The notes beneath the pieces are model-generated. The model made no database searches, had not been told where the DNA came from, and saw nothing but the letters and a program-made list of their open reading frames with translations. 52,214 nt of DNA from an uncultured Lachnospiraceae bacterium (GTDB lineage: Bacteria > Bacillota > Clostridia > Lachnospirales > Lachnospiraceae), in NCBI GenBank assembly GCA_902767015.1, contig CACXFV010000157.1, positions 1-52,214 on the forward strand. Direction: 5' to 3'. Below, one piece after another: positions 17,632 to 42,199 of this stretch (its first letter is position 1; each line of letters begins with the position of its first letter). The position numbers and the translations under genes were made by a program.

Positions 17632-17672
17632 AAAAACCCTTTCCTGCCTTCTATCATCAATAAGCACTCTTA

Positions 17673-19410: not shown

Positions 19411-19443
19411 AAAAAAAATGCGCGCATGTGCGCACACTTTTTT
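19411..19443 (-). terminator. Intrinsic terminator overlapping the rmlB stop
   Basis: GTGCGC and GCGCGC pair (one G-T) around a 4-base loop on the minus strand, followed by eight T. It begins at the rmlB stop codon. Confidence 0.82.
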
Positions 19444-20527: not shown

Positions 20528-20612
20528 CACATTTCCTCCAAAAATATTATTTCATTAACTTTGTAAAACTATCTTCAAAACAATTTCAAAGCTTTACATC
20601 ATAATAAGCTTT

Positions 20613-21703: not shown

Positions 21704-22270
21704 CTATCCCTGATTTTTATTCTTTGTATATTCTTTGATTCCACCCCATTTTGTATCTTTGTCGGAAATAGTCAGCTCCATTCCCTCCTCTATCGGCCAT
21801 TCCACCCCGATATCCGGATCGTTCCATGCAAGACCACCCTCATCATTTGGGTGATAAAAGTCTGTACACTTATATGCAAACTCTGCCGTGTCTGACAAAA
21901 CCAAAAATCCATGTGCAAAATTCTTTGGTATAAAGAACTGCTTCTTATTTTCTGCAGATAATCTGACGCCATGCCATTTGCCATATGTAGCAGAGCCTTC
22001 CCGCAAATCCACTGCAACATCAAAGACTTCCCCGCTCACAACTCTTACAAGCTTATCCTGTGCAAACTCTTTTTGAAAATGAAGTCCACGAAGCACTCCC
22101 TTCTTAGAGCTTGACTGATTATCCTGCACAAATGCCCTATCAATACCTGCTTCTTTAAAATCATTGTAATTATAGGTTTCCATAAAGTAACCGCGTTCAT
22201 CTCCGAACACTGTCGGTGTTATAATTTTTAAACCTTCTATCTCACATGTCTCTACTGTAATCTTTCCCAT
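21704..22270 (-). CDS. rfbC: dTDP-4-dehydrorhamnose 3,5-epimerase
   Basis: RmlC epimerises dTDP-4-keto-6-deoxyglucose at C3 and C5. This 188-residue cupin shows VFGDERGYFMETYN and FVQDNQSSSKKGVLRGLHFQ. The latter carries the catalytic His of the RGLHFQ motif. VSGEVFDVAVDLR and IPKNFAHGFLVLSD are also typical. The start at 22270 has GAGGAAAACA directly before it; a longer reading frame upstream lacks a ribosome site. It is 99 bases from rmlA and 19 bases from the GT2 downstream. No rmlD reductase is seen in this window. Confidence 0.96.
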   Translation of the reverse strand: MGKITVETCEIEGLKIITPTVFGDERGYFMETYNYNDFKEAGIDRAFVQDNQSSSKKGVLRGLHFQKEFAQDKLVRVVSGEVFDVAVDLREGSATYGKWHGVRLSAENKKQFFIPKNFAHGFLVLSDTAEFAYKCTDFYHPNDEGGLAWNDPDIGVEWPIEEGMELTISDKDTKWGGIKEYTKNKNQG

Positions 22271-22369
22271 TGTTTTCCTCATTTCTGCGCTGCTTTTTGT
22301 TTCTATCAGGTTCGTGGCGGCAACGCACAGACACAAACCTTCGAAGTAAAATAATCGAAAATTTTTTCA

Positions 22370-23239
22370 CTATAAACCATTGGCAACATCTACAAGATAC
22401 TGTCCATAAGCCGTCTTCAAAAGTGGCTGTGCAAGAGCTAAGAGCTGTTCCTTATTAATAAAACCTCTCTTATAGGCAATCTCTTCAATACAGGATATAT
22501 AAAGTCCCTGCCGCTTCTGATATGCCGCCACAAAGTCCGCTGCATCAAGCAACATATCATGATTGCCCGTGTCAAGCCATGCAAATCCTCTTCCCAAAGT
22601 CTCTACCATCAGTGTACCTCTGTTCAAATATTCATTGTTGACCGCCGTAATCTCTATCTCACCTCTGGCAGACGGCTTCACATTCTTCGCAATCTCCACC
22701 ACATCATTGTCATAGAAATAAAGGCCCGGAACAGCATAATTTGATTTAGGTTTTTCCGGCTTTTCCTCGATAGAAAGTGCCTTTCCCATTTCATCAAATT
22801 CTACCACGCCGTATTCTCTCGGATCCTTTACATAATAACCAAAAATCGTAGCGCCCTTATCTCTTGCCGCTGCATTTTTCAGAACCTTTGAAAAACTCTG
22901 TCCATAGAAAATATTATCTCCCAACACCAGCGCCACATTGTCACTGCCGATAAATTTTTCTCCTACAATAAAGGCATCTGCAAGACCTCTCGGTGTCTCC
23001 TGAACGGCATAGGAAAATTCCATGCCAAGCTGCTCACCTGTTCCAAACAGTTCCTCAAAGACAGGCAAATCCCTCGGTGTTGATATAATCAATACCTCCC
23101 TTATCCCTGCAAGCATCAATGTGGATAAGGGATAATATATCATCGGTTTGTCATAAACCGGCATAATCTGTTTTGACACTGCTTTTGTCAACGGATATAA
23201 ACGTGTTCCTGAACCACCTGCTAAAATAATACCTTTCAT
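22370..23239 (-). CDS. rfbA: Glucose-1-phosphate thymidylyltransferase
   Basis: RmlA makes dTDP-glucose from glucose-1-phosphate and dTTP. The 289-residue protein has the signature [19 protein letters not shown], then [21 protein letters not shown] and the [20 protein letters not shown] motif. This is normal for the RmlA subgroup. The ribosome site before the ATG is weak (GTAAGAG). The upstream 160 bases hold a small hairpin (CACAG/CTGTG near 23300) but no clear promoter. It supplies dTDP-glucose to RmlB. Confidence 0.97.
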
Positions 23240-23402: not shown

Positions 23403-25676
23403 TTACTGTCCCTCTGACATATATATCATCTTAATGTCAATGCCCAGATTCCTGGTATCTGTACTGTCACTTACCGATGCCGGCAAAAACGTGTTATCGG
23501 TAATCCTGATACTCTCTATATGTCGTATCCCTGTAAGTGGAAAAATCAAACAGTCATCCTTTACTCTGTATGCCCGGATGTCCTTTACATCATTGACATT
23601 CAAAACCAGGTCAAGCATATCATACAATTCGTTTTTCAGATAGTAATTATCATATCCATATCGTTTGATGATCAGAACATCTCCTGCAGCACAGTCAATA
23701 TCAAGATTTTCAAAGGAAATGCTCTCTGATGCCCATCCGTCGTCATATATCGTTCCTGAAGAGACTTTCTTTCCCTTGCTGTAGATAATCCCTCTTATAC
23801 TGCCAAAATCATCTAACAGCGTGTCAATGTTATAGCTATAAAATTCAAATGATTTATCATATGTCTTTTTAGGAACTTCTCCATAATTTTCTCCCAGCTT
23901 ATCATAAGAGACCTGATATAAAAATGTAGCATTTTCATAGTTACTTTCTGAGAGATAAATATAATTCTCATATCCCTTTTCATGCATATAATCATTTACT
24001 CTCTCAAGATAAGATGTCTTAATCGGAATAAATTCCTGCTTGCAATAAGAGAGTAAGGAGGATACATTAAAGCTGATATCCTCATCATAAAAAATATATT
24101 TCACATGATTCCGGTCAAGCTGCACCGAGGTATCTACTGCTGATATATCCAGACCTTTGTACTCCACAATCTGTTCTGAATCAAAAAACAGATTGGCCGA
24201 GATGATAAGACAGGCAACGGAGAGAATGATTGTCACATGCTCCTCTGTCTTTTTCATCAATACCACAAAACTGATAAACAATACCGGAATCAAAATATTA
24301 TAGTATCTTCTCAGTCCCCAATACAACTGCGGAGAATTGCCAAAGGCAATAAAGAAATAACAATATGCCAAAAAAATTCCCATCAGAAAGGCATTTGGCA
24401 AAAAGGCAATCTCCTCATCCCGCTGAACCTTATAAAGCCCCAGCAATCCTCCAATGATTATTACGGAAGGAAACACCATAAACAACATATCAAAAGCATC
24501 CTCCACATAAGTTCTGATATACTGTTCTTGAATCTCTGCCATCTGATACTGCGTGACTATGTTATCCCTAAAGGCAAACAAAGCAAAGACCACACCCAGA
24601 GCAACCAACACAAATGATACAAAATAGGATCTGTAAAACTCCGGAAACTTTTTCCAGAACCTTTTAATCCCTATTCCGGCAATCCATCCGATTATCAGTA
24701 TAGGAATTGAAAATCTCAGTATCTTCATATCATTCTTGGTAATTCTGTCATAATAAATCCAATAGGTCTTTGAAAAAACAAATACTTCCACACAACCAAG
24801 CACAGTCGCTGCTGCCGCCCACTTCTCACTGATATGGCACAATAGCACAATGGCAATAAACATTACCAGCACATAGTCTATTCTGGCACTGTAGAGAGAC
24901 AAAATCGTCAGCACCATCGCCCACACCGGTGTGTGCTCACTGTCATCCAACATCAATGCCATCATCAGAACCAGCAGTAATGCCGATGGTTCCGAATAGC
25001 TTCCTCTGCCAAACCATACAATCAGGGGCGCTATCATAAAGGCAATCGTACAGACGACATTCGCAATACTGTGTGCCTTTTTGGTCAGTCTTTTTAAGAG
25101 CTCATACAACAGCAATGCGTTCAGCATCATAATGACTGTCTGCCCGTAAAAGGCCATACGCTTTTCAAACATGCCAAACATCACATAAAAATAAGTTCCC
25201 CCCGGATAAAAATCCGTATATAACTTGCCATCTCTTATCTGGGTTCCATTCTGTATTTCCGCATAGCCATCCTGCAGTTTTAATACACCCTCCGTGGTCA
25301 TTTCCTCATATAAATCCATTGGCTTATATACTGTGCCATAATTTAACAGATTCATGGTCTTGAGCATATATAATGAAGGATCCTGTCTTAATTCAAGCAC
25401 CGGAGAATAACTCATATAAATGGCTGCACTCACAATAAATATGACACCATAGGCCAGCAACTCTCTCACACCTCCGATGTCAAACAGCTTTGACCGAAGC
25501 ATCAATATGCCAAATACCAGCGATAGAATGACAATCAGCAGCCAGATTACAATCGTAAACTTTATATCAAAAAAGGCGCAGATAGTCCCTACCAATGGCG
25601 AAATCAGAAACATCCCTGAAAAAAAGAACATACAACCTCTCAAAAACTGCACAAATCCGTTAAAAAACTTTTCCAT
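23403..25676 (-). CDS. Large polytopic membrane protein, GT-C glycosyltransferase-like
   Basis: This 757-residue protein has about a dozen hydrophobic helices in its first 520 residues and a soluble C-terminal domain of about 230 residues. An early extracytoplasmic loop carries LELRQDPSLYMLKTMNL, with an Asp placed as in the catalytic loop of GT-C enzymes (PMT, GT39/GT83 types). These use polyprenyl-phosphate sugars outside the membrane. Exact family membership is not recognised. It could be a GT-C transferase that decorates the polymer, or a polymerase-like enzyme; no other Wzy-type gene is evident in the window. AGGAG precedes the start, and it follows the GT2 gene by 20 bases. Confidence 0.6.
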   Translation of the reverse strand: MEKFFNGFVQFLRGCMFFFSGMFLISPLVGTICAFFDIKFTIVIWLLIVILSLVFGILMLRSKLFDIGGVRELLAYGVIFIVSAAIYMSYSPVLELRQDPSLYMLKTMNLLNYGTVYKPMDLYEEMTTEGVLKLQDGYAEIQNGTQIRDGKLYTDFYPGGTYFYVMFGMFEKRMAFYGQTVIMMLNALLLYELLKRLTKKAHSIANVVCTIAFMIAPLIVWFGRGSYSEPSALLLVLMMALMLDDSEHTPVWAMVLTILSLYSARIDYVLVMFIAIVLLCHISEKWAAAATVLGCVEVFVFSKTYWIYYDRITKNDMKILRFSIPILIIGWIAGIGIKRFWKKFPEFYRSYFVSFVLVALGVVFALFAFRDNIVTQYQMAEIQEQYIRTYVEDAFDMLFMVFPSVIIIGGLLGLYKVQRDEEIAFLPNAFLMGIFLAYCYFFIAFGNSPQLYWGLRRYYNILIPVLFISFVVLMKKTEEHVTIILSVACLIISANLFFDSEQIVEYKGLDISAVDTSVQLDRNHVKYIFYDEDISFNVSSLLSYCKQEFIPIKTSYLERVNDYMHEKGYENYIYLSESNYENATFLYQVSYDKLGENYGEVPKKTYDKSFEFYSYNIDTLLDDFGSIRGIIYSKGKKVSSGTIYDDGWASESISFENLDIDCAAGDVLIIKRYGYDNYYLKNELYDMLDLVLNVNDVKDIRAYRVKDDCLIFPLTGIRHIESIRITDNTFLPASVSDSTDTRNLGIDIKMIYMSEGQ

Positions 25677-25696: not shown

Positions 25697-26884
25697 TTAA
25701 AAAGAAGCCTTTCTTCCCATTATGATTTTTAATGAGGCAAGGGTTCCTCTTAGTTTTACCTTGTTTTTTTCACACACTGACTGTTTACACTGCTTTAAAA
25801 AGAATTTGATATATTTTTTTGTTGAAATATTCTTTTTGATAAACAGCAATTTATTTCGATATACGTGATAGACAAAAAAAGGAGACCACTCCGTACTGCT
25901 GCCGGTATGGATATGCCGTACAACAGATGTCGGACAATACATAATCTTCTTGCCAAGCTTCTTTATCCGGTAGGATAAATCAGTATCCTCATAATACATG
26001 AAGAACCTCTCATCAAATCCGCCGCACTGTTCAAAATCCTCTTTCAGCATGATAATAGACGCACCACAGCCGTTATTAATCTCATATGGCTGATTGAATT
26101 TTTCTCCATCCGGCTCACAAAAGCCGATATCGTATCCATCATAATTTTCATTGATGCCGGAGCCCGCATTTTGAATCAGTGTATATTGCCGGGTACGGAT
26201 AAACTCTCTGTCAAGCTTAATCCGCATCTTGGAGGCAGCCATGCTCTGATGTTCTGAAAAATCAATTGTGGCACCCTCATCAAATTCTTTTACAATGATA
26301 TCAATCGTATAATCCCTGACCTGCTCTAACAGAGGAATAGAAATCTCTGTGTGTCCAAAACAGACTACTTCTTTCTCATAGCACAATGCATTCCGGCAGA
26401 ATTTATTGTCTATCATATATTCTATTCCGTTGATTCTGATTTTTCTCTTTATTATCACTTTATCCTTTGTGGTAAATGTCATCTTGATAAAATCATAGAA
26501 AAATACAAGCTTTGAATTGACCATTCCATACTCCGGATTCTGCACAATAAAATGATATATTTCAGAGAGCCAGTTCTCATCAACAGCCGTGTCATTATTC
26601 AGCAGTATAACATACTTACCCTCTGCATTTTTAATGCCGAGATTATTTCCTCCTGCAAAGCCCAGGTTCTGCTCTGATTCTACGATTTTAAGGTGACACT
26701 TGTCTGCATAGCCGCTGTTTCTCAGATACGTCACAGAGTCATCATCAGAATGATTATCCTCAAAGACAACTTCAAATGTAAAATCCTCGTGCTTGATTTT
26801 CACAATGGATGCAAATAATTGATCAATATATTTTTTTCCGTTATAATTCACCAAAATTATGGAAACATCATATTTGTAACTCAT
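25697..26884 (-). CDS. Family 2 glycosyltransferase with an internal insertion
   Basis: This GT-A enzyme of 395 residues has VSIILVNYNGKKYI, FEDNHSDDDS, a GGNNLGIKNAEG segment and LLNNDTAVDENWL for donor and metal binding. It also has the late GGFDERFFMYYEDTDLSYRIKKLG motif with the catalytic ED. Between these, about residues 135-235 form an insertion of some 90 residues absent from ordinary GT2 proteins (including RDYTIDIIVKEFDEG). The insertion might bind acceptor or a partner. The start, with GAGAGG upstream, overlaps the GT4 gene before it by 17 bases, so the two are co-translated. Confidence 0.83.
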   Translation of the reverse strand: MSYKYDVSIILVNYNGKKYIDQLFASIVKIKHEDFTFEVVFEDNHSDDDSVTYLRNSGYADKCHLKIVESEQNLGFAGGNNLGIKNAEGKYVILLNNDTAVDENWLSEIYHFIVQNPEYGMVNSKLVFFYDFIKMTFTTKDKVIIKRKIRINGIEYMIDNKFCRNALCYEKEVVCFGHTEISIPLLEQVRDYTIDIIVKEFDEGATIDFSEHQSMAASKMRIKLDREFIRTRQYTLIQNAGSGINENYDGYDIGFCEPDGEKFNQPYEINNGCGASIIMLKEDFEQCGGFDERFFMYYEDTDLSYRIKKLGKKIMYCPTSVVRHIHTGSSTEWSPFFVYHVYRNKLLFIKKNISTKKYIKFFLKQCKQSVCEKNKVKLRGTLASLKIIMGRKASF

Positions 26885-28079
26885 TAAATACCTCTCTATG
26901 CCTCTTATAAAAATGTTCTATAGAATACTCCTTTGACCGCTTGGCAGAAAGCACCGCCATTTTTCTTCTAAGCTCATCATCATCAATCAATTTCTTTGTG
27001 TTTTCAACACATTCCTTCTCGTTATCCCACCGGAAACCGTTCTTGCCGTTCTCTACCGTTTCCTTTTGTCCGCCTTTATTGATGACCACAGGAACAGCGC
27101 CAAAACTCATTGCCTCCACTGTGGTAATACCAAAATGCTCCATCTTCTCCGGCTCAACACTCTCATCAATGCCGTAACCGGTGCCATGCCAGAATATCTT
27201 TGCCTTTCCGTATAACTCCATGAGTTTTGAATACTCACAATTTTCATGAATAAACACATTATCTACCGTCGCTGCAAGCTTTTTAATCTTATCCAGATAT
27301 TCCATATCTGCCGGCAGATTGGATACTGCCCCTACCAAATGATACTGATATGTCTTGAATACCTCCTGATGATTAACGAAAAATTCCACCATTTCCAACT
27401 GCTTCTTACTGTGGGCTGCCACAAAAAATCTTCCCACACTGATGATTATGTTCTCTTTTTTACTCTCGTCATACCTTCCCACAATATCAGCCTCATTAAA
27501 CACCGGCGGATAGATTACCTTCTCTTTTCTGTGAGGTTTCCAATACTGTGCCAGCCAGTGATTAGTATATTTGGAATTTGAGACAATTGAATCGTAACTA
27601 TTGAAGAACCTGAAATCCATATACCTTGAAACCACTTTGTCAGCCAATGAATGGTTCATTTCATTAATGTACCTGTGTGGCGGAAACATACACTGATACA
27701 TATTGACCTTTGCTTTACCTATATGCTTGCTCAAAAACATAAAGTTGATAAACAAGTCATATTCCTTTGTAATATCCTCCACCATCTTTTTATTCTTAAA
27801 AGACTCAAGCTTATTCTTTGGCATCACCAAATCCATTTTTCTGATTTTAGTCTTCTTGAGATTCAATCCAAACTGCCTGTTGACATCCTCTATGGTCACA
27901 TAGTCTTCATCATTAATATCAACCTCATTATAATTGTGTACCAATATATCAATATCAACCTTATAATTGTAATATTCCTCAATAAACTGGCACAGATATC
28001 CCATATGTTTTTCTCCACCGCCAAGGGTTGGAATATACGGATTTAGTATCAGTACCTTCCTGATTTTTTTCTTGTTCAT
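26868..28079 (-). CDS. Family 4 glycosyltransferase
   Basis: This retaining GT-B enzyme of 403 residues has the N-terminal VLILNPYIPTLGGGEKHM glycine-rich loop. It also has IISVGRFFVAAHSKKQ for the donor domain, and the C-terminal EKMEHFGITTVEAMSFGAVPVVINKGGQKE with the E-x7-E type donor-binding pattern. GT4 members commonly use GDP-mannose, and GDP-mannose genes lie upstream in the same direction, so it may be a mannosyltransferase. That is inference. GGAGGGAT precedes the start, 3 bases after the methyltransferase stop. Confidence 0.85.
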   Translation of the reverse strand: MNKKKIRKVLILNPYIPTLGGGEKHMGYLCQFIEEYYNYKVDIDILVHNYNEVDINDEDYVTIEDVNRQFGLNLKKTKIRKMDLVMPKNKLESFKNKKMVEDITKEYDLFINFMFLSKHIGKAKVNMYQCMFPPHRYINEMNHSLADKVVSRYMDFRFFNSYDSIVSNSKYTNHWLAQYWKPHRKEKVIYPPVFNEADIVGRYDESKKENIIISVGRFFVAAHSKKQLEMVEFFVNHQEVFKTYQYHLVGAVSNLPADMEYLDKIKKLAATVDNVFIHENCEYSKLMELYGKAKIFWHGTGYGIDESVEPEKMEHFGITTVEAMSFGAVPVVINKGGQKETVENGKNGFRWDNEKECVENTKKLIDDDELRRKMAVLSAKRSKEYSIEHFYKRHREVFNELQI

Positions 28080-28082
28080 TTT

Positions 28083-29567
28083 TCATCCCTCCTGCCTTTT
28101 CTCTTTTTTATCACCGCTTGTTGCTGATTTAGTCTGCTTTTTGGCAGAATCCTTTTTTTGTCCCGTTTTACCACTCTGATTTTGTCTGTTATGCTTCTCC
28201 TGACGCTTTGCTTTCATCTTTTCTTCTATCTTGTACAATACCTTCACCGGCAGCACCTTCATAACAAACTCTCTGTACTCTCTTAAATAATCCGCCTCAG
28301 AGTTTAATCTTCTGATTATTTCATCCTTTTCCTCTGTAAGTCTTCCGATTTCTTCCTGTCTTTGCTTTTCTTTTTCCTCAAGCCTCTCTCTCTGCTCGCA
28401 GATATAGTTTTCTTTTTCCTCAAGCCTCTCTCTCTGCTCGCAGATATAGTTTTCTTTCTGCTCTATCGTTATTCTTCTTTCTTCACACATCTTTATCAGT
28501 TTTTGAAGAAAGTCCTCATTTCCAATTTTCTCTGCGTCAACGACACGATAGCGGATGCTTACTTCATTGCAATTCTCTACCTCATAGTACATCTGTGAAT
28601 CATCATCATTAAAATAATAACTATTACCTGACAGATAATATGCGCTGGTACTCCCACATTGAAGCTCTGAACCGGTTCCGTCACTATTACTGCCTGTCAC
28701 CGACACTATTTCTATGATACATTTTTTATTTAACGGGTCAAATCTCAGTTTTCTTGTACCCGATGGAATCTTAATCTGAAGCTCATGTAATCTGCCATCA
28801 GGGATAATTATCTCTTTATTCTCATTTTCTCCGTCAAAAAAATACTGTGCATAATAATAATCAGTATAATACTGAATCCTGTCGATATTTCTCACCTTCT
28901 GTGAAGGTGACACCTTGTAGACAAACTGATAGATTTCTGCCATTTTTCTGGTTTTAAGAGCCAGCGGATTCACATGCTTTATTTCTTCATAGGTATTCTT
29001 AAACTCATTAAAGCCAACCTGCGTATAGGTGGCACACTTCATATCAACATATAAAGAAAGCCTCTTTAGCATATTCTCTATGTTATCATAAGTAAAGAAT
29101 CTTACATGCGTATTGTCAAGGAGACCTGTATCCTTGTACTCAAATTTATTGTCAAGCAGGTCAATGATGATGGAATTATGTGCAATATTAGGCAGAGACA
29201 TAATAATATATCCCTCCGGCTTCAACATCTGCTTTGCACACTCTAACACCTTTTCGCCGGAAAACAAATGTTCTAAAACGTCTGCAAATAAAATATAATC
29301 AAAGCTCACGCCTTTAAACCTGACAGTCCACTCATAATCCTCAATATTTCCTATCACATAATCCTTTGCATACTGAGCTGCCATTTTCCCCGCCTGTTCA
29401 TCCAGCTCTACGATATAAACCTCACAGTTCATTTCCTCCTTGAGATACTTTGTAAGCCTTCCGCTTGCCGGTCCAAATTCCAGTATGGTAGAATCAGGTT
29501 CTATCTCACTGATCATAATGGACATTGTATTCTCAAAATCAAAATTAATCTCGGTTTCATATTTCAC
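28083..29567 (-). CDS. SAM methyltransferase with C-terminal coiled coil (WbdD-like candidate)
   Basis: Residues about 20-200 form a class I methyltransferase: STILEFGPASGRLTKYL binds SAM, VYIVELDEQAGKMA follows, and FDYILFADVLEHL is motif II. A beta-rich middle region of about 150 residues follows. Residues about 355-425 are a charged coiled coil with a perfectly duplicated 14-residue block starting ENYICEQRERLEEK. A basic Lys/Gln tail ends the protein. The GTG at 29567 (AGGAG 10 bases upstream) is preferred; an ATG at 29606 is in frame but has no site and would overlap the ABC gene. The position right after Wzm/Wzt matches E. coli WbdD, which caps the chain and measures it. No kinase domain is seen here. 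Confidence 0.8.
   Translation of the reverse strand: MKYETEINFDFENTMSIMISEIEPDSTILEFGPASGRLTKYLKEEMNCEVYIVELDEQAGKMAAQYAKDYVIGNIEDYEWTVRFKGVSFDYILFADVLEHLFSGEKVLECAKQMLKPEGYIIMSLPNIAHNSIIIDLLDNKFEYKDTGLLDNTHVRFFTYDNIENMLKRLSLYVDMKCATYTQVGFNEFKNTYEEIKHVNPLALKTRKMAEIYQFVYKVSPSQKVRNIDRIQYYTDYYYAQYFFDGENENKEIIIPDGRLHELQIKIPSGTRKLRFDPLNKKCIIEIVSVTGSNSDGTGSELQCGSTSAYYLSGNSYYFNDDDSQMYYEVENCNEVSIRYRVVDAEKIGNEDFLQKLIKMCEERRITIEQKENYICEQRERLEEKENYICEQRERLEEKEKQRQEEIGRLTEEKDEIIRRLNSEADYLREYREFVMKVLPVKVLYKIEEKMKAKRQEKHNRQNQSGKTGQKKDSAKKQTKSATSGDKKEKRQEG
28371..28454. repeat. Perfect 42-bp tandem duplication in the coiled coil
   Basis: Positions 28371-28412 and 28413-28454 are identical. Each copy encodes 14 residues (two heptads), so the duplication keeps both the frame and the coiled-coil register. 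Confidence 0.95.
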
Positions 29568-29574
29568 TTGACTA

Positions 29575-30822
29575 TCATCTCCTATTTTCACCACTAACCC
29601 ATTCATGGCTTAATACTGTAATTCCCTCTGCTATATAATCCATTTCCACAAAAAATTCCTTATACCTTGTCCTATAATCAATGGGGGCTGTCGCCGTCTG
29701 ATCAAAGATGGCCGCGTCCATATAATAACTGCCCCCTACCAGATTAAAGCTCTTATACTGCAACACAATGGAATTAAGTCCCTTTTTCCACGGCACCTTA
29801 ACCTTGTCTAACAAGGTATTCACGCCACATATATAGAGATTATCAATTCGCAGGATGGACAGACCGATGACAGGATTTTTAATCTCTGTGTCATTGACAT
29901 AGTAAGTAATCTTCGCATTGACTGTCTCTCCGTGTTTTATATTTTCAAGTATTTTCCCTTTTCTGTCAAGTAACTCCACTGATTTTATCTCAGCAATATC
30001 AATATCTTCATCCGTACTCTTTATTTCCGTATCCGCCTTCTCTCCCGCCTGCTCATCGTCACCATTTAAAACATTCTGGTCTACATCAAGCAGCTTTAAA
30101 AAATCAAGATAACGATCCGTGATAATATCGGTATCACCATCATCCACCAATTTACCCTCATTCAGCCAGATACAACGGTCACAGAAACGCTTTATCATGT
30201 TGGTATCATGGCTGACAAATATGATAGTAACCCCTTTATTCTTAAATTCCATAAATTTATCCATACACTTAAGCTGGAATCTTACATCCCCTACTGCCAG
30301 AGCTTCATCAACAATCAGTATCTCAGGATCTACACTGACGGCAACGGCAAAGGCAAGTCGAACAAACATACCACTGGAATATGTCTTTACCGGCTGGTAT
30401 ATATGTTCCCCAATATCAGCGAATTTTATGATATCATCAAGCTTTGCATCCATCTGTTCTTTCGTAAAACCATTGATTGTTCCGTTGAGATAGATATTTT
30501 CAATCCCTGTGTATTCATTATTAAAACCGGCGCCAAGCTCTAACAGTGCTGCAATCCTGCCATTCACAATGCATTCGCCGGAATTCGGGGTCAGCACACC
30601 GGTAAGAATCTTTAATACTGTCGATTTTCCCGAACCATTCTTTCCCACGATTCCAATGGATTCTCCCTTTTGGATGGAAAAAGACACATCATCAAGAGCA
30701 TAGAAATCCTTATGAAGCTTTTTACGTGTGAGATTGAGTGCTTCCTTCACTCTGTCCGACGGCTTGTCATACATCTTATAAATCTTGGTAATGTTCTTTA
30801 TCTCAATACTATTTTCACTCAT
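29575..30822 (-). CDS. ABC exporter ATPase with C-terminal cargo domain (Wzt type)
   Basis: This ATPase powers export of a polyprenyl-linked polysaccharide. The N-terminal domain has GKNGSGKS (Walker A), the YSSGM signature in place of LSGGQ as in Wzt/TagH proteins, ILIVDEALAVGD (Walker B) and FVSHD (H loop). After a charged linker (about 235-275) comes a beta-sandwich-like C-terminal domain of about 140 residues of the Wzt type. That domain recognises the modified end of the glycan in E. coli O8/O9a. The ATG at 30822 is used; its ribosome site is weak (GGAAG). It is 22 bases behind the permease. Confidence 0.93.
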   Translation of the reverse strand: MSENSIEIKNITKIYKMYDKPSDRVKEALNLTRKKLHKDFYALDDVSFSIQKGESIGIVGKNGSGKSTVLKILTGVLTPNSGECIVNGRIAALLELGAGFNNEYTGIENIYLNGTINGFTKEQMDAKLDDIIKFADIGEHIYQPVKTYSSGMFVRLAFAVAVSVDPEILIVDEALAVGDVRFQLKCMDKFMEFKNKGVTIIFVSHDTNMIKRFCDRCIWLNEGKLVDDGDTDIITDRYLDFLKLLDVDQNVLNGDDEQAGEKADTEIKSTDEDIDIAEIKSVELLDRKGKILENIKHGETVNAKITYYVNDTEIKNPVIGLSILRIDNLYICGVNTLLDKVKVPWKKGLNSIVLQYKSFNLVGGSYYMDAAIFDQTATAPIDYRTRYKEFFVEMDYIAEGITVLSHEWVSGENRR

Positions 30823-30844
30823 AACGCTTCCAACACAATCCTTT

Positions 30845-31672
30845 CTACAGAACATCTGCAAAATGTGGCTTCAGTTTTTTGTATACAGAGGTACTGATGG
30901 CAAAACAGAACAGTACCACCAGCCAGAAATAGATGGTCATCTTATAATGCTGCCAGAAACCTATCTTATAGAGAAAGCAATCCCGATATCCCTGTACAAT
31001 GTAGTACATCGGATTGAATCGAAGTACGGTAACCACACCCGGATAATCCACAAATTTTCCAATGGTGCCACATGCCGTGCCGTCAATCGGATACATAATC
31101 GGAGTAAACCACATGGCAAACTGCAACACAATATTGACTATCTGTGCAAGATCCTTAAAAAAGACTGTGATAGACGATATAAAATAGGACAAGGCCAGTG
31201 AAAGTGCAAATACACAAAGTGTATAATACAATGCCTGAAGGACATAAAAAGTAGGCCAGTAACCATAGATACAACTAATCACGATGACAAGACCGATAAA
31301 AAAAATATGCACAAAAAAAGACGATATGATTTTAACCATCGGAATAATGCTGATTTTGAATACCACCTTCTTGACGATATAAGAGTATTCAATCAGACTG
31401 TTGGAAGAACTGTTAAGGGCTTCATTAAAAAAAATCCACGGACAGATTCCTGCCACCAGCCACAAAAGGTACGGCTCCTGCAACTCTCCTGCCGGATTAT
31501 CCTTAATACCACTTCCAAATACAATCCAGTAGATGGCAATTGTCACTAACGGCTGCACAAAAGCCCATATCACGCCCAGATAAGAGCCTGCGAATCTATT
31601 CTTAAAATCATTTTTTGCCAGATTCAAAATCATTGACCTGCTGTGATATAAATCCTTTACTAGAAACACCAA
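30845..31672 (-). CDS. ABC polysaccharide export permease (Wzm/TagG type)
   Basis: This 275-residue permease of the ABC-2 family has six hydrophobic helices. It also has the family's N-terminal motif RFAGSYLGVIWAFVQPL, and FAMWFTPIMYP then LRFNPMYYIVQGYRD near the C-terminus. The predicted start is TTG at 31672 with AGGAGG 7 bases upstream; a GTG codon follows immediately. It is 11 bases after ManA and 22 before Wzt, so the transporter pair is expressed with the GDP-mannose genes. Confidence 0.93.
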   Translation of the reverse strand: MVFLVKDLYHSRSMILNLAKNDFKNRFAGSYLGVIWAFVQPLVTIAIYWIVFGSGIKDNPAGELQEPYLLWLVAGICPWIFFNEALNSSSNSLIEYSYIVKKVVFKISIIPMVKIISSFFVHIFFIGLVIVISCIYGYWPTFYVLQALYYTLCVFALSLALSYFISSITVFFKDLAQIVNIVLQFAMWFTPIMYPIDGTACGTIGKFVDYPGVVTVLRFNPMYYIVQGYRDCFLYKIGFWQHYKMTIYFWLVVLFCFAISTSVYKKLKPHFADVL

Positions 31673-31683
31673 TCCGATACCTC

Positions 31684-33216
31684 CTATATTTCAGTAATAA
31701 CCATTTCACAGTTGCCATGGATATATGCCACGCCTTTACCGGCAGTGATAAACAGGCTTTCACCTCTGTGAAACTCAATTTTTTCATCTTCCAATGTTAT
31801 CTCTCCCTCTCCGCCTACACAGACAATTGCCAAAAAAGACTTGTCCGTCAGCACAAGAGACATCTCTTCTTCTATGCGATAACTGACGCAATTAAAATAC
31901 TTGCAATGCGCCAACTGTCTGACAGTATTACCACCTATCTCCTGATTAGTAGCTTTCGTGAGTGGATTATCATATTGATGATAATCTAACACGTCAATGG
32001 CTTTGTCTACGTGAAGCTCACGCCTGTTGCCATTCTTATCTTTCCTGTCATAATCATATAGGCGGTATGTGCAGTTCGAACTCTGTTGTATCTCACATAT
32101 CATAATGCCCGCACCAATGGCATGTACAGTTCCCGCCTTAATGAAAAATACATCGCCCTTCTTTGCCGGCACCCAGTTTAATATCTCAAGAATGGTATTA
32201 TCCTCTATCCTTTTTCTCACTTCTCCGGCAGATGTCTCTCTGTTAAAGCCGCAGTAGATACCGGCACCCTCATCAGCCTCTAAGATATACCACATCTCAT
32301 TTTTGCCATATTCATTTTCATTGACAAGGGCATATTCATCATTCGGATGCACTTGAATCGACAACGGATTTTTGGCATCAATAAACTTAATCAATATCGG
32401 AAAATCACTCATAAACCGACATTTCCAGCCAAGTGCCTCTCCTCCCGGCCTGCCAAGGAACTCTGCCAGTGTCATGCCCGCATATTTTCCTTCCGCAACT
32501 GTACTTAATCCGTCAGGATGTGCTGACACCTCCCAGCTCTCTGCCACGATATCCAATGTCGTCTTCTTACCAAATATCTCGCGAAGCTTTGTGCCTCCCC
32601 ACAGATAATCCTTAAATGCCGGAGACAGCTTTACCATGACCGGTTTCAAAGCCTGCGTCACCTTTTCCGTCTCTGCCCCACTCTGTTTTCCTGCTGTTAT
32701 CAAAATCTTTTCTGCCAAAGTCACTTCATCGATATTCGCAAACAAATCATCACAAAGGTCTTCCTTTATGGAATGAAAGACATCTGCCTTCAACAGATAT
32801 ATTCCCATATCATAACTTTGCCCGTCATTTTCGACACCAAGATGGCATATCTTCCCTCTGTTCATGCTCCGGATTGCCTCTAACATACCCTTCTTATAGT
32901 CAACTCCTGAAGGATGATATCCGGCAGGATTGACTCTTTCTTCATCAAATACTATGATTCCCTCTTGTGGTTGAAGCTCTTGACAGATGTTATCCATGAT
33001 TTGCTTTTTTGTCAGACAGGAGGTATCTATCCATCGATAAGCAATATCCGATATCTCACGGATTTCCTGTTCTATCTCTGACCTTTCCTTACCGGCAGCT
33101 GCAATAAGATACTCGTCACAATAAGACATATTCATTAATACAATATCCCTACACGAGAAAACGGAAGCCGTACTCTTTAAATGACTGCCATCAGTGGGTA
33201 AAACAACACACTTCAT
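31684..33216 (-). CDS. manA: Mannose-6-phosphate isomerase with extra N-terminal domain
   Basis: Type I ManA interconverts fructose-6-phosphate and mannose-6-phosphate. The enzyme part starts near residue 195 (LSPAFKDYLWGGTKLREIFG). It shows the zinc site SIQVHPNDEYA, EMWYILEA and KAGTVHAIG, then CEIQQSSNCTYRLYDYDR. The first 190 residues are not part of normal ManA. They include a GIYLLKADVFHSIKEDL segment like the end of sugar nucleotidyltransferase domains, but no G-x-GxR start motif, so it may be a degenerate or regulatory domain. The ATG at 33216 has GGAG 7 bases upstream. Together with ManC and the mutase it completes a route to GDP-mannose. Confidence 0.88.
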   Translation of the reverse strand: MKCVVLPTDGSHLKSTASVFSCRDIVLMNMSYCDEYLIAAAGKERSEIEQEIREISDIAYRWIDTSCLTKKQIMDNICQELQPQEGIIVFDEERVNPAGYHPSGVDYKKGMLEAIRSMNRGKICHLGVENDGQSYDMGIYLLKADVFHSIKEDLCDDLFANIDEVTLAEKILITAGKQSGAETEKVTQALKPVMVKLSPAFKDYLWGGTKLREIFGKKTTLDIVAESWEVSAHPDGLSTVAEGKYAGMTLAEFLGRPGGEALGWKCRFMSDFPILIKFIDAKNPLSIQVHPNDEYALVNENEYGKNEMWYILEADEGAGIYCGFNRETSAGEVRKRIEDNTILEILNWVPAKKGDVFFIKAGTVHAIGAGIMICEIQQSSNCTYRLYDYDRKDKNGNRRELHVDKAIDVLDYHQYDNPLTKATNQEIGGNTVRQLAHCKYFNCVSYRIEEEMSLVLTDKSFLAIVCVGGEGEITLEDEKIEFHRGESLFITAGKGVAYIHGNCEMVITEI

Positions 33217-33337
33217 AATCAATCTCCATTTCTAAAATCATTCTTTCAATCGCAACAGTCCGGTAAACTGTCATTTTCAAATCACCATTTGCAAAATATC
33301 TTCTGCTGGTCTGTATTCGCATTTACACAAAATCTGC

Positions 33338-33364
33338 AAAAACAAGGTGAAGAACCGCCTTGTT
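33338..33364 (-). terminator. Weak intrinsic terminator after the phosphohexomutase
   Basis: AACAAGG and CCTTGTT pair on the minus strand around a 10-base loop and run into TTTTTG. The stem is only 7 bp, so read-through to manA is likely. Confidence 0.6.
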
Positions 33365-33389
33365 AATTTGCTTTTATTCATCAATATCT

Positions 33390-35150
33390 TTAACCGGCAT
33401 TCACAAGATTGAGGAGTGCCTCCTTTAACTGCTTCATCTTTTCCTTTGAGTCCTCTAAAGAATCTCCCTTTACACCTACATAAAACTTAATCTTTGGTTC
33501 TGTTCCTGATGGTCGTACACAACACCAGCCTTCATTCTCAAATTCATAATAAATGACATTGGAATTTGGCAGTCCCGTCTTTGTGACCTTCCCTGTTACA
33601 TAGTCAACTCGCTTATCCTCCTTGTAATCTCTCTGTGCCAATACCTTGAAATTACCAATATTCTTAATCGGATGATTTCTCATGCCTGCGATAATGTCCT
33701 GAATTTTGGCAGCGCCGTCTGCTCCCTTCATCGTAATCGCTACCAGATCCTCACAGTAATAACCATATTTTTCATATATTCTCAGCATCTGATCCCACAG
33801 TGTCAGACCCTTTTCTTTGTAATATGCTGCTGCCTCACAAAGTGCCATTACAGCAACGCAGGCATCCTTATCTCTGGAATGGGTACCTACAAGACAGCCA
33901 TAACTTTCCTCATATCCGAATAAAAACTCATAAGCACCCGGCTCATTCTTTGCTTTTCTCTCCTCGAAAAACTTAATCTGTTCACCAATATATTTAAAGC
34001 CTGTCAGCACTTCAATCAACGTAATACCATATTCTTTGACAATGGCACCTGCCATCTCTGAAGAAACGATTGTCTTTACAAGAGCACCGTCTTTTCGGTT
34101 CTCAGGTAAAAGACCTAACTCCTGTTTTCTGGAAAGCTCATATTCCGCAATTAAAAGACCTGACATATTTCCAGTGAAGGATACATACTCTCCTGTCTTG
34201 CTATCCTTCGCATAGACGCCCAACCGGTCAGCATCCGGATCTGTTGCAAGAACAATATCGGCATCTACCTCTCTTGCCAGTTTAAGTGCCAGGGTAAACG
34301 CTTTCGGATCCTCCGGATTCGGATACTCGAGCGTAGGAAAATCTCCGTCAGGCTTCTCCTGCTCCGCAACCACATAAACATTCGTGAAGCCAAGTTCCTT
34401 TAACACCCTTCTTACCGGAACATTACCGGTACCACAAAACGGTGTATATACAATCGTAAACTGTGAAGCCATATTCTTAATTGAGTCAGGACTCAGCACT
34501 AATTTCTTTAATTCCTCCATATACCGGTCATCAATCTCTTTGCCGATGGTATGATAAAGCCCCTTCTCCTGCGCTGTTTTTCTATCAATCTTTTTAATGG
34601 TGGACAAATCTGTAATGTTATTAATCTCTCCGATAATCTCATTTGCCGCATTGTCAGTAATCTGTGAGCCGTCTTCACCATAAACCTTATATCCGTTATA
34701 TTCCGGCGGATTGTGACTTGCCGTGATAACGATACCTGCCACACAACCCAACTCTCTTAACGCAAAAGACAATTCCGGTGTCGGTCTCAAACTGTCAAAC
34801 CGATATGTCTTAATTCCGTTTGCATTCAGACACAGTGCTGCAGCCTCCGAAAACTCAATAGACATATGTCTGGAATCATAGGCGATGGCAACCCCTTTAT
34901 CTGCACCATTATTCTTCAAAATATAATTTGCCAATCCCTGTGTTGCCTTTGTCACGGTATAAATATTCATACGATTGGTTCCTGCACCGATCACACCTCT
35001 CAGTCCACCGGTTCCAAAGGACAAATCCTTGTAAAATCTGTCTTCTATCTCTTTATCATCTGTAATCGCTTTCAATTCTTCTCTCGTATTCTCGTCAAAA
35101 ATCTCACTCTCACACCAAAAATTGTACTTTTCTAAATATTCTGCTTTCAT
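33390..35150 (-). CDS. Phosphoglucomutase/phosphomannomutase (alpha-D-phosphohexomutase)
   Basis: This 586-residue mutase moves phosphate between C1 and C6 of hexoses. It has the phosphoserine loop VITASHNPPEYNGYKVY, the metal loop ATDPDADRLGVY, sugar loop GYEESYG and phosphate-binding RPSGTEPKIKFY. The length and LSFGTGGLRG start resemble the PGM2-type of clostridia. Placed between manC and manA, it most likely makes mannose-1-phosphate here and may also make glucose-1-phosphate for RmlA and Ugd. AGAGG precedes the start, and a weak terminator follows. Confidence 0.93.
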   Translation of the reverse strand: MKAEYLEKYNFWCESEIFDENTREELKAITDDKEIEDRFYKDLSFGTGGLRGVIGAGTNRMNIYTVTKATQGLANYILKNNGADKGVAIAYDSRHMSIEFSEAAALCLNANGIKTYRFDSLRPTPELSFALRELGCVAGIVITASHNPPEYNGYKVYGEDGSQITDNAANEIIGEINNITDLSTIKKIDRKTAQEKGLYHTIGKEIDDRYMEELKKLVLSPDSIKNMASQFTIVYTPFCGTGNVPVRRVLKELGFTNVYVVAEQEKPDGDFPTLEYPNPEDPKAFTLALKLAREVDADIVLATDPDADRLGVYAKDSKTGEYVSFTGNMSGLLIAEYELSRKQELGLLPENRKDGALVKTIVSSEMAGAIVKEYGITLIEVLTGFKYIGEQIKFFEERKAKNEPGAYEFLFGYEESYGCLVGTHSRDKDACVAVMALCEAAAYYKEKGLTLWDQMLRIYEKYGYYCEDLVAITMKGADGAAKIQDIIAGMRNHPIKNIGNFKVLAQRDYKEDKRVDYVTGKVTKTGLPNSNVIYYEFENEGWCCVRPSGTEPKIKFYVGVKGDSLEDSKEKMKQLKEALLNLVNAG

Positions 35151-35209
35151 ACATTACCTCTTTACTTAATACTAATTTACATAAAAATTACTTTATATTG
35201 AATATCAGG

Positions 35210-36289
35210 CTATAACAGCTCTGTTCTTCCATCCTCATTCAAACGGTCAACCACCAGCTTGACATCCTGCGCCCTGTCCTTAGGGCACACCATAATGGCA
35301 TCCTCTGTCTCGACAACGATTAGATTATCAATTCCCACTGTCGCTATCAGTCGTTTGGATGAACTGATAATACTGTTCGTTGTATCAATGGCGATACTGT
35401 CACCCACGATTACATTGCCATCCTCATTCTCATCATGCAGTACATTCAGCATATCAAAGCTTCCGACGTCGTTCCATCCAAATTCTCCCGGTACTACCAA
35501 AACATCCCCACCGGCTGCACTAGGCTCTAAAATGGCATAATCCACTGATATCTTTCTGATGTTCGGATATATTTCCTGAATTACCTCTGCTTCCCTGTCT
35601 GTCTCTAAGGCATCCATTATTTTTATAAGCTCCTCATAGATATCAGGAATGTACTGTTTAAATTTTTCCAGTATCACGGAAGCTTTCCAGATAAACATTC
35701 CGCTGTTCCATGCATAATTTCCTGACTCTACATACTCTATCGCCGTCTCAAGATCAGGCTTTTCTTTAAACTCCTTCACCGGCTTGTATTCCTCAGGCTC
35801 ATCCATATCATATTTAATGTAACCATAGCCTGTGGCCGGAAAAGTTGGCGTGATACCGATCGTTACCAACTTATCTGTTTTCGCTGCTGCATCAGTTGCC
35901 ACTTCTATAATCCTTGTGAATTCCTTTGTATCTTTTATATACGCATCTGACGGTGTGATCACCATGATACCGTCGCCGTACTTCTTTAATACTTCCACAG
36001 CTGCATACCCTATACATGCTGCTGTATTTCTGGCGGATGGTTCTGCTAAAATATGATCTTCTGCCACTCTGCCATCAACGGCCTCTTTCATTGTGGATAC
36101 CTGCGACTGATTTGTCACAATAAAAATATCCTTCGTAGGAATCGAAAAAGCTAATCTGTCGATGGACTCATTGACCATCAGATCATTTCCACTAAGATTT
36201 AAAAGCTGCTTCGGTCTTTTTTGTCTTGACATCGGCCAGAATCTGGTTCCTCCGCCGCCTGCCATAATTACACCATACATTTTCTCCAT
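35210..36289 (-). CDS. manC: Mannose-1-phosphate guanylyltransferase
   Basis: ManC makes GDP-mannose from mannose-1-phosphate and GTP. The 359-residue protein has MAGGGGTRFWPMSRQKRPKQ at the start, then EPSARNTAACIGYAAV, VITPSDAYI and GYGYIKYD. FKEKPD and NSGMFIWK are also typical of the family. It lacks the C-terminal isomerase domain of bifunctional ManC enzymes, which is supplied by the separate manA gene. AAAGG lies 7 bases before the ATG. It heads the GDP-mannose/ABC export module behind a recognisable promoter. Confidence 0.96.
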   Translation of the reverse strand: MEKMYGVIMAGGGGTRFWPMSRQKRPKQLLNLSGNDLMVNESIDRLAFSIPTKDIFIVTNQSQVSTMKEAVDGRVAEDHILAEPSARNTAACIGYAAVEVLKKYGDGIMVITPSDAYIKDTKEFTRIIEVATDAAAKTDKLVTIGITPTFPATGYGYIKYDMDEPEEYKPVKEFKEKPDLETAIEYVESGNYAWNSGMFIWKASVILEKFKQYIPDIYEELIKIMDALETDREAEVIQEIYPNIRKISVDYAILEPSAAGGDVLVVPGEFGWNDVGSFDMLNVLHDENEDGNVIVGDSIAIDTTNSIISSSKRLIATVGIDNLIVVETEDAIMVCPKDRAQDVKLVVDRLNEDGRTELL

Positions 36290-38683: not shown

Positions 38684-38684
38684 T

Positions 38685-39701: not shown

Positions 39702-39796
39702 GCTTTTCACCCTATTATTCCTTTCTTTTGATTTATCTTGATTTCTCTATATTTTTATCTTTTTTATTTTTATCTTCTTTTTTCCGATCTGCCGGA

Positions 39797-42185: not shown

Positions 42186-42199
42186 ACTGTTTTCCCTGT

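Follow-up and report, generated by a model that had tools for sequence, protein, structure and literature searches.

Putative ABC-transporter-dependent surface-glycan cluster with a methyltransferase–coiled-coil chain terminator in an uncultured Lachnospiraceae bacterium

The gene cluster described here, located in a 52,214-nucleotide stretch of DNA from an uncultured Lachnospiraceae bacterium (contig CACXFV010000157.1; the whole stretch is referred to as the window), probably encodes a surface-glycan system that depends on an ABC transporter and has a capping terminator (probability about 0.68). The best reading of the sequence is an ABC-exported, end-methylated and length-controlled polymer built on the WbdD/Wzt plan. 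In the proposed mechanism, the WbaP-type transferase would start the chain on undecaprenyl phosphate, and the GT4 and GT2 enzymes, together with other glycosyltransferases of the cluster, would elongate it by adding mannose and, probably, rhamnose. The candidate terminator, MTcc, would be held at the membrane via its C-terminal end, with the methyltransferase at the far end of the coil; when the growing chain attains a length that lets it reach the methyltransferase, its non-reducing end would be methylated and growth would stop. The cargo domain of Wzt would read the capped end, Wzm and Wzt would export the chain, and the LCP ligase may then join it to the wall. The spacer length is predicted to shift by tandem duplications of whole heptads.

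All genes named in a preliminary description of the region are found on the minus strand in the order given there and nearly contiguous, as borne out by their coordinates and by Pfam and NCBIfam matches (Table 1). The likeness to the E. coli operons noted in that description also holds: the window follows the order of E. coli HS (O9), manC-rfbK-wzm-wzt-wbdD-wbdA-GT4-wbdC, apart from an inserted manA and different glycosyltransferases. The juxtaposition of wzt and the methyltransferase gene is more than chance, since the two are at most 200 bp apart in 65 of 80 related loci, in Lachnospiraceae, Enterococcus, Paenibacillus, Aneurinibacillus, Campylobacterales and others; in 62 of these 65 the Wzt protein has the length needed to include a cargo domain. 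One related locus (L038) belongs to a strain of Diplocloster agilis, a relative that can be grown in the laboratory. The earlier reading of the region as an export system stands as far as terminator and exporter are concerned, a terminator gene lying beside wzt in both Firmicutes and Campylobacterota. As a Gram-positive counterpart of the E. coli system it is already known in kind: the methyltransferase WsaE of Geobacillus stearothermophilus NRS 2004/3a is a published Gram-positive candidate chain terminator that occurs with Wzm/Wzt, according to the part of its description in PMC2943079.

Table 1. Annotated features of the cluster, in window coordinates
Feature	Position	Strand	Evidence
manC, mannose-1-phosphate guanylyltransferase	35210..36289	-	GMP_PMI, TIGR01479 1e-100, slightly below curated cut-off
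Phosphohexomutase, PGM/PMM type	33390..35150	-	Pfam PGM_PMM I-IV
manA, mannose-6-phosphate isomerase	31684..33222	-	TIGR00218 4e-49
wzm, ABC permease, short form	30845..31672	-	PF01061 (ABC2_membrane) 1e-17; 28.5% to E. coli HS Wzm
wzt, ABC ATPase with C-terminal cargo domain	29575..30861	-	PF00005 (ABC_tran), PF14524; 37.5% to HS Wzt
Wzt_C cargo domain, low-scoring class (65 bits)	29638..29994	-	PF14524, 6e-17
MTcc, proposed chain terminator and ruler	28083..29606	-	Methyltransf_23 1e-14; 507 aa
Middle beta domain (predicted), ~residues 240-365	28512..28889	-	Homologous to domain in larger terminators and long Wzm proteins
Coiled-coil region, ~residues 366-447	28266..28511	-	Heptad register and periodicity; weak PDB coiled-coil matches, E 0.06 and above
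Perfect 42-bp tandem duplication, 2.2 copies	28366..28457	-	TRF 100% match; 42/42 identical
GT4 glycosyltransferase, candidate mannosyltransferase	26868..28079	-	Glycos_transf_1
GT2 glycosyltransferase	25697..26884	-	Glycos_transf_2
757-aa protein, probably membrane	23403..25676	-	By eye; no Pfam match over cut-off
rmlA	22370..23239	-	Assigned by eye from sequence
rmlC	21704..22336	-	Assigned by eye from sequence
GT2, weak rhamnosyltransferase-family match	20686..21684	-	TIGR01556 4e-11, below cut-off
rmlB	19442..20530	-	By eye; weak dehydratase-family matches
WbaP-type polyprenyl-phosphate sugar transferase, likely initiator	17673..19076	-	PF02397 9e-72
LytR-CpsA-Psr (LCP) ligase, candidate wall-attachment enzyme	16288..17667	-	PF03816 6e-32

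MTcc consists of a methyltransferase, a beta domain and a coiled coil. No kinase family of Pfam matched its 507 residues, in agreement with the preliminary description; the further proposal that a beta-rich domain takes the place of the kinase was not sustained. The same domain occurs in larger terminators that combine a methyltransferase with a kinase-like part, where it is present in five of seven aligned proteins (hhalign 99.6%), one of them from the genus of the window, and it is therefore no substitute for a kinase. Moreover, the E. coli O8 WbdD also lacks a kinase in the account excerpted from PMC3482155. The domain, predicted from its sequence to be beta-rich, is found in long Wzm proteins as well, and its role is probably glycan binding. 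It matched none of the 25 Pfam families listed for 47 relatives. Two other identities were rejected by hhalign, namely a homologue of Wzt_C (probability 0.9%) and a degenerate WbdD-type kinase (0.2%).

The larger terminators match in 102 of 200 Lachnospiraceae genomes, one match being MTcc itself. The second part of these proteins, of which the 826-aa L134 is the type, is termed kinase-like by analogy with the literature and from residues D458, N463 and D476, conserved in all seven aligned proteins; library and PDB sequence searches with it gave no match, and it has no similarity to the WbdD kinase. In two of the seven (L140 and L148) the beta domain is largely missing, and in four (L142-L145) it is followed by no coil. 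Among the 80 relatives of MTcc, 19 are at least 700 aa long; of four such proteins scanned, L026, L046 and L055 have the order MT-GT2-GT2 and L051 carries GT4 and GT2. The window MTcc stops after the coil, with no fused GT2 domains. By blastp it gave no match to HS WbdD under E 0.1, and its methyltransferase reached an hhalign probability of 80% against WbdD over 95 columns, a level that many class I methyltransferases may reach. By analogy, MTcc is a putative terminator of the kinase-less type, at most O8-like, and also WsaE-like.

The coiled coil proposed in the preliminary description is supported by the heptad register: in the best of seven registers, hydrophobic residues occupy 13 of 24 a/d positions vs 10 of 62 elsewhere. 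In a Fourier test the 3.5-residue periodicity exceeded that of shuffled sequences (p about 0.001, a value inflated by the tandem duplication); the test is weak, region 460-600 of WbdD being undetected by it (p 0.19). The 42-bp duplication inside the putative ruler was overlooked in the preliminary description; its unit encodes 14 residues, equal to two coil heptads. Among the MTcc coils ten tandem arrays were counted, eight with a period of 21 or 42 and two with a non-heptad period; one further array (L086, period 18, nt 3380-3415), which lies in a fused glycosyltransferase part, was left out, and with it the count is 8/11. The eight arrays belong to 8 of 81 MTcc genes and to two phyla (Firmicutes and Campylobacterota), and these periods are found in none of the eight TRF rows of 446 neighbouring genes. 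Judged from these sequences, the spacer seems to change in length by tandem duplication of whole heptads.

The chance is appreciable, if short of even, that the 42-bp duplication has no effect on chain length and is either a neutral accident of repetitive coil DNA or an error of metagenome assembly. Coiled-coil DNA is repeat-prone, and the window belongs to an assembly of 168 contigs; however, the same periods recur in two phyla and are absent from the neighbouring genes, and non-heptad arrays are the fewer, as expected if register matters. The extension of the preferred reading to a genetically adjustable ruler has a low probability. Under this proposal, exact heptad units would be gained or lost by strand slippage, shifting the modal length of a methyl-capped wall glycan step by step; gut Lachnospiraceae would in this way vary polymer length as a contingency trait, and the matching class of Wzt cargo domain would restrict export to correctly capped chains. 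The genome collections used hold one genome per species. All 48 full-length rows of E. coli O9 wbdD that were inspected agree in length, and the HS O9 gene differs from the window MTcc in having no tandem repeats in the coil. Several relatives (e.g., L030 and L032) have hardly any coil or none, ending soon past the beta domain, so that a ruler is not universal; the table of coil lengths across relatives is rough, the domain envelope sometimes extending into the coil. Finally, the C-terminal end of the window MTcc is without the SxSWKxTxPxR motif of some relatives, and it shows no clear version of the post-coil motif that WbdD has in common with some relatives.

The description of the exported polymer as a mannan is not supported by comparison with related loci. 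ManC was found in the fetched flanks of just three of 80 loci, vs 34 with at least two of rmlA, rmlB and rmlC, and the window cluster itself has all three rml genes, with rmlD on a different contig of the same genome. Mannose in the polymer is nevertheless plausible. ManC occurs only with the GT4/GT2 subtype (3/8 vs 0/72 loci, p 0.0007), a GT4 homologue being present in eight of the 80 loci, and the sole PDB match of the GT4 profile below 1e-6 is annotated as "first mannosyl transferase (wbaZ-1)" (8e-8). The phosphohexomutase is more likely to be a general mutase than a dedicated manB, as a locus of the same genus (L012/L036) has the mutase without an adjacent manC. A GDP-fucose route was rejected, as no Gmd was found over the cut-off in the genome and the sole match was RmlB. 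No WbdA-like dual glycosyltransferase/polymerase was seen in the cluster, the best match of a window glycosyltransferase to WbdA having E 0.01.

It is a real possibility, at less than even chances, that the product is a rhamnan-type wall glycan, with manC and manA serving another use (for instance separate glycan genes at 36-46 kb) and GT4 using another donor. The prevalence of rml genes over ManC speaks for this, as does the single copy of manC found in the genome, which could supply all needs for GDP-mannose; however, all three related loci with ManC share the same GT4/GT2 pair, and the PDB match of GT4 points to mannose.

The pairing of exporter and terminator accords with the model of an exporter that reads a capped end. 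The nearest PDB chain to the window Wzt is 8dku, an ABC transporter (A. aeolicus Wzt). High-scoring Wzt_C domains were found with a larger terminator in 93 cases and with MTcc in none, and low-scoring ones in 0 and 9, respectively; in genomes outside the discovery set the counts were 82:0 vs 0:6 (p 2e-9), statistics that overstate independence, as linked genes are co-inherited. Thus the Wzt_C class tracks the terminator class, and the classes do not cross in the sample. The class boundary was placed at 90 bits, in a gap from 83 to 102 bits; two later Wzt_C places, at 93 and 95 bits, have neither terminator beside them. The count excludes MTcc places with E above 1e-40 and one larger-terminator row (G128) that overlaps the MTcc gene itself via the shared beta domain. 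Both terminator types are present in the genus of the window, and one genome (G062) has both pairs at separate places. At 41 of 143 Wzt_C places neither type lies within 6 kb. In addition, Wzt is shorter than 380 aa in six related loci, and end recognition by its cargo domain is unlikely there. It is improbable that MTcc is a decorating O-methyltransferase acting along a mannose or rhamnose polymer, with a coil that serves just to tether it to the membrane or GT4 and chain length set otherwise: the highly variable and in some relatives nearly absent coil would suit such an enzyme, but in most loci a long Wzt is closely linked to it, and this linkage and the split of Wzt_C classes by terminator type are what is expected if the exporter reads the chain end.

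The cap-and-export logic has been worked out mainly for Gram-negative O antigens and one Gram-positive S-layer system. By homology, it would operate in roughly every second genome sampled from the Lachnospiraceae, a major family of the gut. The two versions of the terminator, with and without the kinase-like part, each with its own class of cargo domain, form a natural data set for asking what an exporter recognises in a glycan. Where putative rulers consist of exact heptad repeats, natural alleles allow a direct test of the length-control model, and such rulers hint at a way for a commensal to adjust how long its wall glycan is. New in this analysis are the status of the beta domain relative to the kinase, its occurrence in long Wzm proteins, the pairing of Wzt_C and terminator classes, and the heptad duplications.

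Several described systems share parts of this plan. The Geobacillus S-layer glycan system (WsaE, WsaF, WsaP, Wzm and Wzt) is likewise Gram-positive, with WbaP-type initiation, rml genes and Wzm/Wzt; the window differs in its GT4/GT2 pair, GDP-mannose genes and nearby LCP ligase. In the published layout (PMC2943079), WsaE has the MT-GT2-GT2 order of three of the four scanned long relatives of MTcc, and its N-terminal methyltransferase is proposed to form a 2-O-methyl rhamnose cap, with methylation in vitro reported to be independent of chain length. Judged by that layout, the window terminator is set apart by being separate from the glycosyltransferases and by having a beta domain and a coil. 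The E. coli O8/O9a polymannan system (WbdD, WbdA and Wzt with a CBM) shares the order manC-mutase-wzm-wzt-terminator-glycosyltransferases, and the O9a WbdD coil acts as a ruler in the excerpts of PMC3482155 and PMC5082667; the extra beta domain and rml genes distinguish the window, as does the lack of a visible WbdA-like polymerase. ORF6 of Klebsiella pneumoniae O7 is laid out as methyltransferase-kinase-CBM-coiled coil-GT2-GT2 in the relevant portion of PMC11231755. On that layout, MTcc resembles it in having a methyltransferase and a putatively CBM-like domain ahead of the coil, and the larger terminators of the family resemble it too; MTcc differs in having no kinase-like part. In-frame heptad tandem repeats are shared with Helicobacter pylori FutA/FutB, in which the number of repeats sets which O-antigen lengths get modified (PMC2583950, in part). 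These are fucosyltransferases acting on LPS and not exporter-paired chain terminators; within-species differences in copy number are documented for H. pylori but not for MTcc.

Some details of the individual genes are as follows. The start of wzt is probably the ATG at 30822. An alternative start of MTcc, the GTG at 29567, aligns with the starts of several homologues (MKY...), and the extent 28083-29567 is therefore as likely as the longer open reading frame. The window Wzm is without the N-terminal domain found in long Wzm proteins. ManA has an additional N-terminal region of ~190 residues without a Pfam match, its Pfam match beginning at residue 196. Finally, the 757-aa protein also adjoins the terminator–exporter module in another locus (L018).

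The gene content and order suggested in the preliminary description are confirmed on the minus strand of the window: manC, a phosphohexomutase gene, manA, wzm, wzt, MTcc (the methyltransferase, beta-domain and coiled-coil protein proposed as chain terminator and ruler), GT4 and GT2, with the family matches expected from their names and with neighbouring genes close or overlapping from manA through GT2. That description, a Gram-positive counterpart of the O8/O9a-type mannan exporter with a beta domain in the place of the kinase, was right as to the kind of system; the mannan and the exchange of kinase for beta domain were not upheld, and an earlier Gram-positive example exists. What emerges as new is a two-class exporter-terminator pairing in a gut family, a shared beta domain and a putative heptad-quantised ruler. 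Wzt ends in the cargo domain Wzt_C (PF14524, 6e-17), and its nearest solved relative, aligned over residues 19-385, is the ABC transporter chain 8dku_A, which we take to be the Wzt of Aquifex aeolicus. Located 3' of GT2 on the same strand are genes for a 757-aa protein, RmlA, RmlC, a GT2, RmlB, a WbaP-type initiator and an LCP ligase, the rml names being our own, given from sequence. The genome has rmlD on another contig and, as far as found, a single copy of manC; no Gmd match in it reached the cut-off. We infer methylation and its position, the sugars, length control and wall attachment.

Features of the window and of L134, a same-genus locus with a larger terminator
Feature	Location	Strand	Remarks
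MTcc	window 28083-29606	-	methyltransferase, beta domain, coiled coil
Tandem duplication in MTcc coil	window 28366-28457		perfect, 42-bp unit, 2.2 copies
757-aa protein	window 23403-25676	-	looks like membrane protein; C-terminal part soluble-looking; no Pfam match over cut-off
ManA	window 31684-33222	-	additional N-terminal region of ~190 residues without Pfam match
Second glycan gene set	window 36433-44208	-	ATP-grasp, acyltransferase, epimerase, DegT aminotransferase, Wzx-like membrane protein (no Pfam match), GT56 (Fuc4NAc-transferase family), GT2
Glycosyltransferase	L134 7958-11029		1,023 aa; two GT2 stretches, WsaF N- and C-terminal domains
Larger terminator	L134 11051-13531		826 aa; methyltransferase, kinase-like region, beta domain, coil (judged by eye)

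The O9 locus of E. coli HS has the order manC-rfbK-wzm-wzt-wbdD-wbdA-GT4-wbdC, and the window proteins compare with their HS counterparts at 37.5% (Wzt), 28.5% (Wzm) and 36% (ManC). The window GT4 matches the HS GT4 (labelled WbdB) over 103 residues only, and MTcc has no blastp match below E 0.1 to the HS terminator WbdD. The two loci share their gene plan, but MTcc is not a close relative of WbdD. The missing kinase is no departure from the prototype pair, since the WbdD of E. coli O8 is itself described as kinase-less (PMC3482155). Among Gram-positive bacteria there is a precedent in WsaE of Geobacillus stearothermophilus, described as joining two glycosyltransferases to an N-terminal methyltransferase; its cluster includes Wzm/Wzt, and WsaE is proposed to cap a rhamnan (PMC2943079). 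In the literature covered, which mostly excludes subscription journals, we found no description of such a system in Lachnospiraceae or Clostridia. Through its WsaF domains, the L134 glycosyltransferase connects such clusters with the synthesis of S-layer rhamnan.

Genome contigs were scanned for relatives of MTcc. Of the 127 recovered, the analysis retained the best 80, which belong to Lachnospiraceae, Enterococcus, Paenibacillus, Aneurinibacillus, Campylobacterales and a small number of other groups. Among these best 80 loci, Wzt is present in 74 and lies at most 200 bp from MTcc in 65; it is shorter than 380 aa in 6 of the 74 and in 3 of the 65. The fetched flanks of the same 80 contain two or more of rmlA/B/C in 34 loci versus ManC in 3, contrary to the mannan proposal, the window-type GT4 in 8, and no ManA homologue. 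All ManC loci belong to the GT4 loci (Fisher 0.0007, kinship being ignored), two of which, L018 and L020, end at contig ends, and the GT4 profile has one PDB match below 1e-6, annotated 'first mannosyl transferase (wbaZ-1)'. This makes it likely that mannose is among the sugars of the GT4/GT2 subtype; a homopolymeric mannan is not indicated. Proteins of at least 700 aa account for 19 of the best 80, and four of them were scanned with Pfam: behind the methyltransferase, L026, L046 and L055 have two GT2 stretches, and L051 has a GT4 and a GT2. Nine Enterococcus loci (L046, L052, L062, L068-L072 and L078) encode MTcc-containing proteins of about 1,055-1,096 aa, adjoining wzm-wzt and with rml genes nearby; L046 is the one of them that was scanned.

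A beta-domain profile built from MTcc residues about 234-368 matches 59 of the best 80 MTcc proteins, and no Pfam family for it was visible among the 25 of 82 families listed. By profile comparison it shows no kinship with Wzt_C (0.9%). The domain matches the N-terminal, presumably extracytoplasmic, domain of long Wzm proteins of at least 430 aa (hhalign 91.9%, E 7e-7), which make up 14 of the 72 Wzm in related loci; the window Wzm is of the short form. Compared directly, the beta domain of the larger terminators and the Wzm domain reach only 13%. One candidate glycan-binding domain may occupy both sides of the membrane, in the terminator and in long Wzm. The larger terminator of L134 carries the same beta domain as MTcc (hhalign 99.6%, E 4e-24). 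Residues D458, N463 and D476 of the kinase-like region are invariant in all seven aligned larger terminators, of which L140 and L148 retain little of the beta domain and L142-L145 show no coil behind it. Pfam and PDB sequence searches gave the kinase-like part no name; the K. pneumoniae O7 terminator is described with a likewise unannotated kinase, plus a CBM before or around its coil (PMC11231755). Since larger terminators with a kinase-like part also carry the beta domain, it does not stand in for a kinase, and MTcc is the kinase-free version.

In the first genome set of 60 relatives, Wzt_C was found in 25 and a larger-terminator match in 14, Wzt_C being low-scoring beside MTcc and high-scoring beside the larger terminator. 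The second sample drew 200 genomes from the family, with close to one for each genus. Here Wzt_C occurs in 121; MTcc was matched in 19 at 1e-10 (11 places in 10 genomes at E <=1e-40) and the larger terminator in 102 at 1e-10, some matches covering part only and one of them (G128) being the beta domain of an MTcc. We counted 143 Wzt_C places, with a class boundary of 90 bits and a partner window of 6 kb. At or above the boundary (n=111), a larger terminator is nearby in 93 cases, MTcc in none and neither in 18, whereas below it (n=32) MTcc is nearby in 9, the larger terminator in none and neither in 23, these absences being soft because at most 4 to 7 candidates were scored per genome. The Fisher test gives 4e-13, genes inherited together not being independent, and the partition holds without the first 60 genomes (82:0 versus 0:6, p 2e-9). 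The pairing is not one clade against another, because one genome (G062) holds both pairs at separate places, its MTcc match having an internal stop, and the genus of the window also holds both types (G001, G004 and G005 versus G000, G006, G007 and G008). Larger terminators adjoin high-scoring Wzt_C and often have the beta domain; several genomes encode their methyltransferase part and their kinase-like part in two distinct, adjacent frames. A third kind of Wzt_C partner may exist: L137 (G017, contig C40) has a low-class Wzt_C without MTcc, and no methyltransferase was seen among ORFs of at least 200 aa in the first 9 kb of this contig, which starts at wzt.

The duplicated unit in the MTcc coil encodes KENYICEQRERLEE twice, its 14 residues being two heptads; with about 1 nm per heptad (PMC5082667), this amounts to some 2 nm of added length. 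In the nearest relative (L010/L018) the unit occurs once, in diverged form. Between the window and L018, identities are 176/233 in the methyltransferase, 72/132 in the beta domain and 30/64 with 18 gaps in the coil, and reach 86% for GT4, 80% for GT2 and 90% for Wzt; within this single pair, the putative ruler is the part that changes fastest. TRF (score at least 60) detected 10 arrays in the coils of 81 MTcc genes, with period 21 or 42 in eight (the window, L029, L045, L049, L051, L057, L076 and L086) and other periods in L035 and L043, while 446 further genes from these loci gave 8 rows (four genes), none with a period divisible by 21. The binomial chance of 8 in-frame periods in 10 is 6e-6. 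Because selection for coil register alone would produce this bias, it speaks for the coil and is no proof of adjustable length. A known case in which the number of heptad repeats sets the glycan lengths modified is described for H. pylori fucosyltransferases (PMC2583950). Matches to HS wbdD occur in 263 of 5,426 E. coli genomes and cover at least 80% of the gene in 210; 48 of the 60 matches listed are full-length, and each of these is exactly 2,127 bases long. HS wbdD lacks arrays of period 21 or 42. Coils with heptad repeats occur in the MTcc family; none was observed in the O9 prototype. Some MTcc relatives have little or no coil.

The C-terminal end of the window MTcc, FVMKVLPVKVLYKIEEK, might, at a guess, be a membrane anchor. 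A loose SxSWKxTxPxR-like end pattern gives hits in 22 of the best 80 relatives, a number of which are unconvincing, and the WbdD sequence has a comparable stretch after its coil. Finally, the 757-aa protein adjoins the module both in the window and in L018, and the order of the second glycan gene set is mostly kept in the same-genus loci L012/L036.
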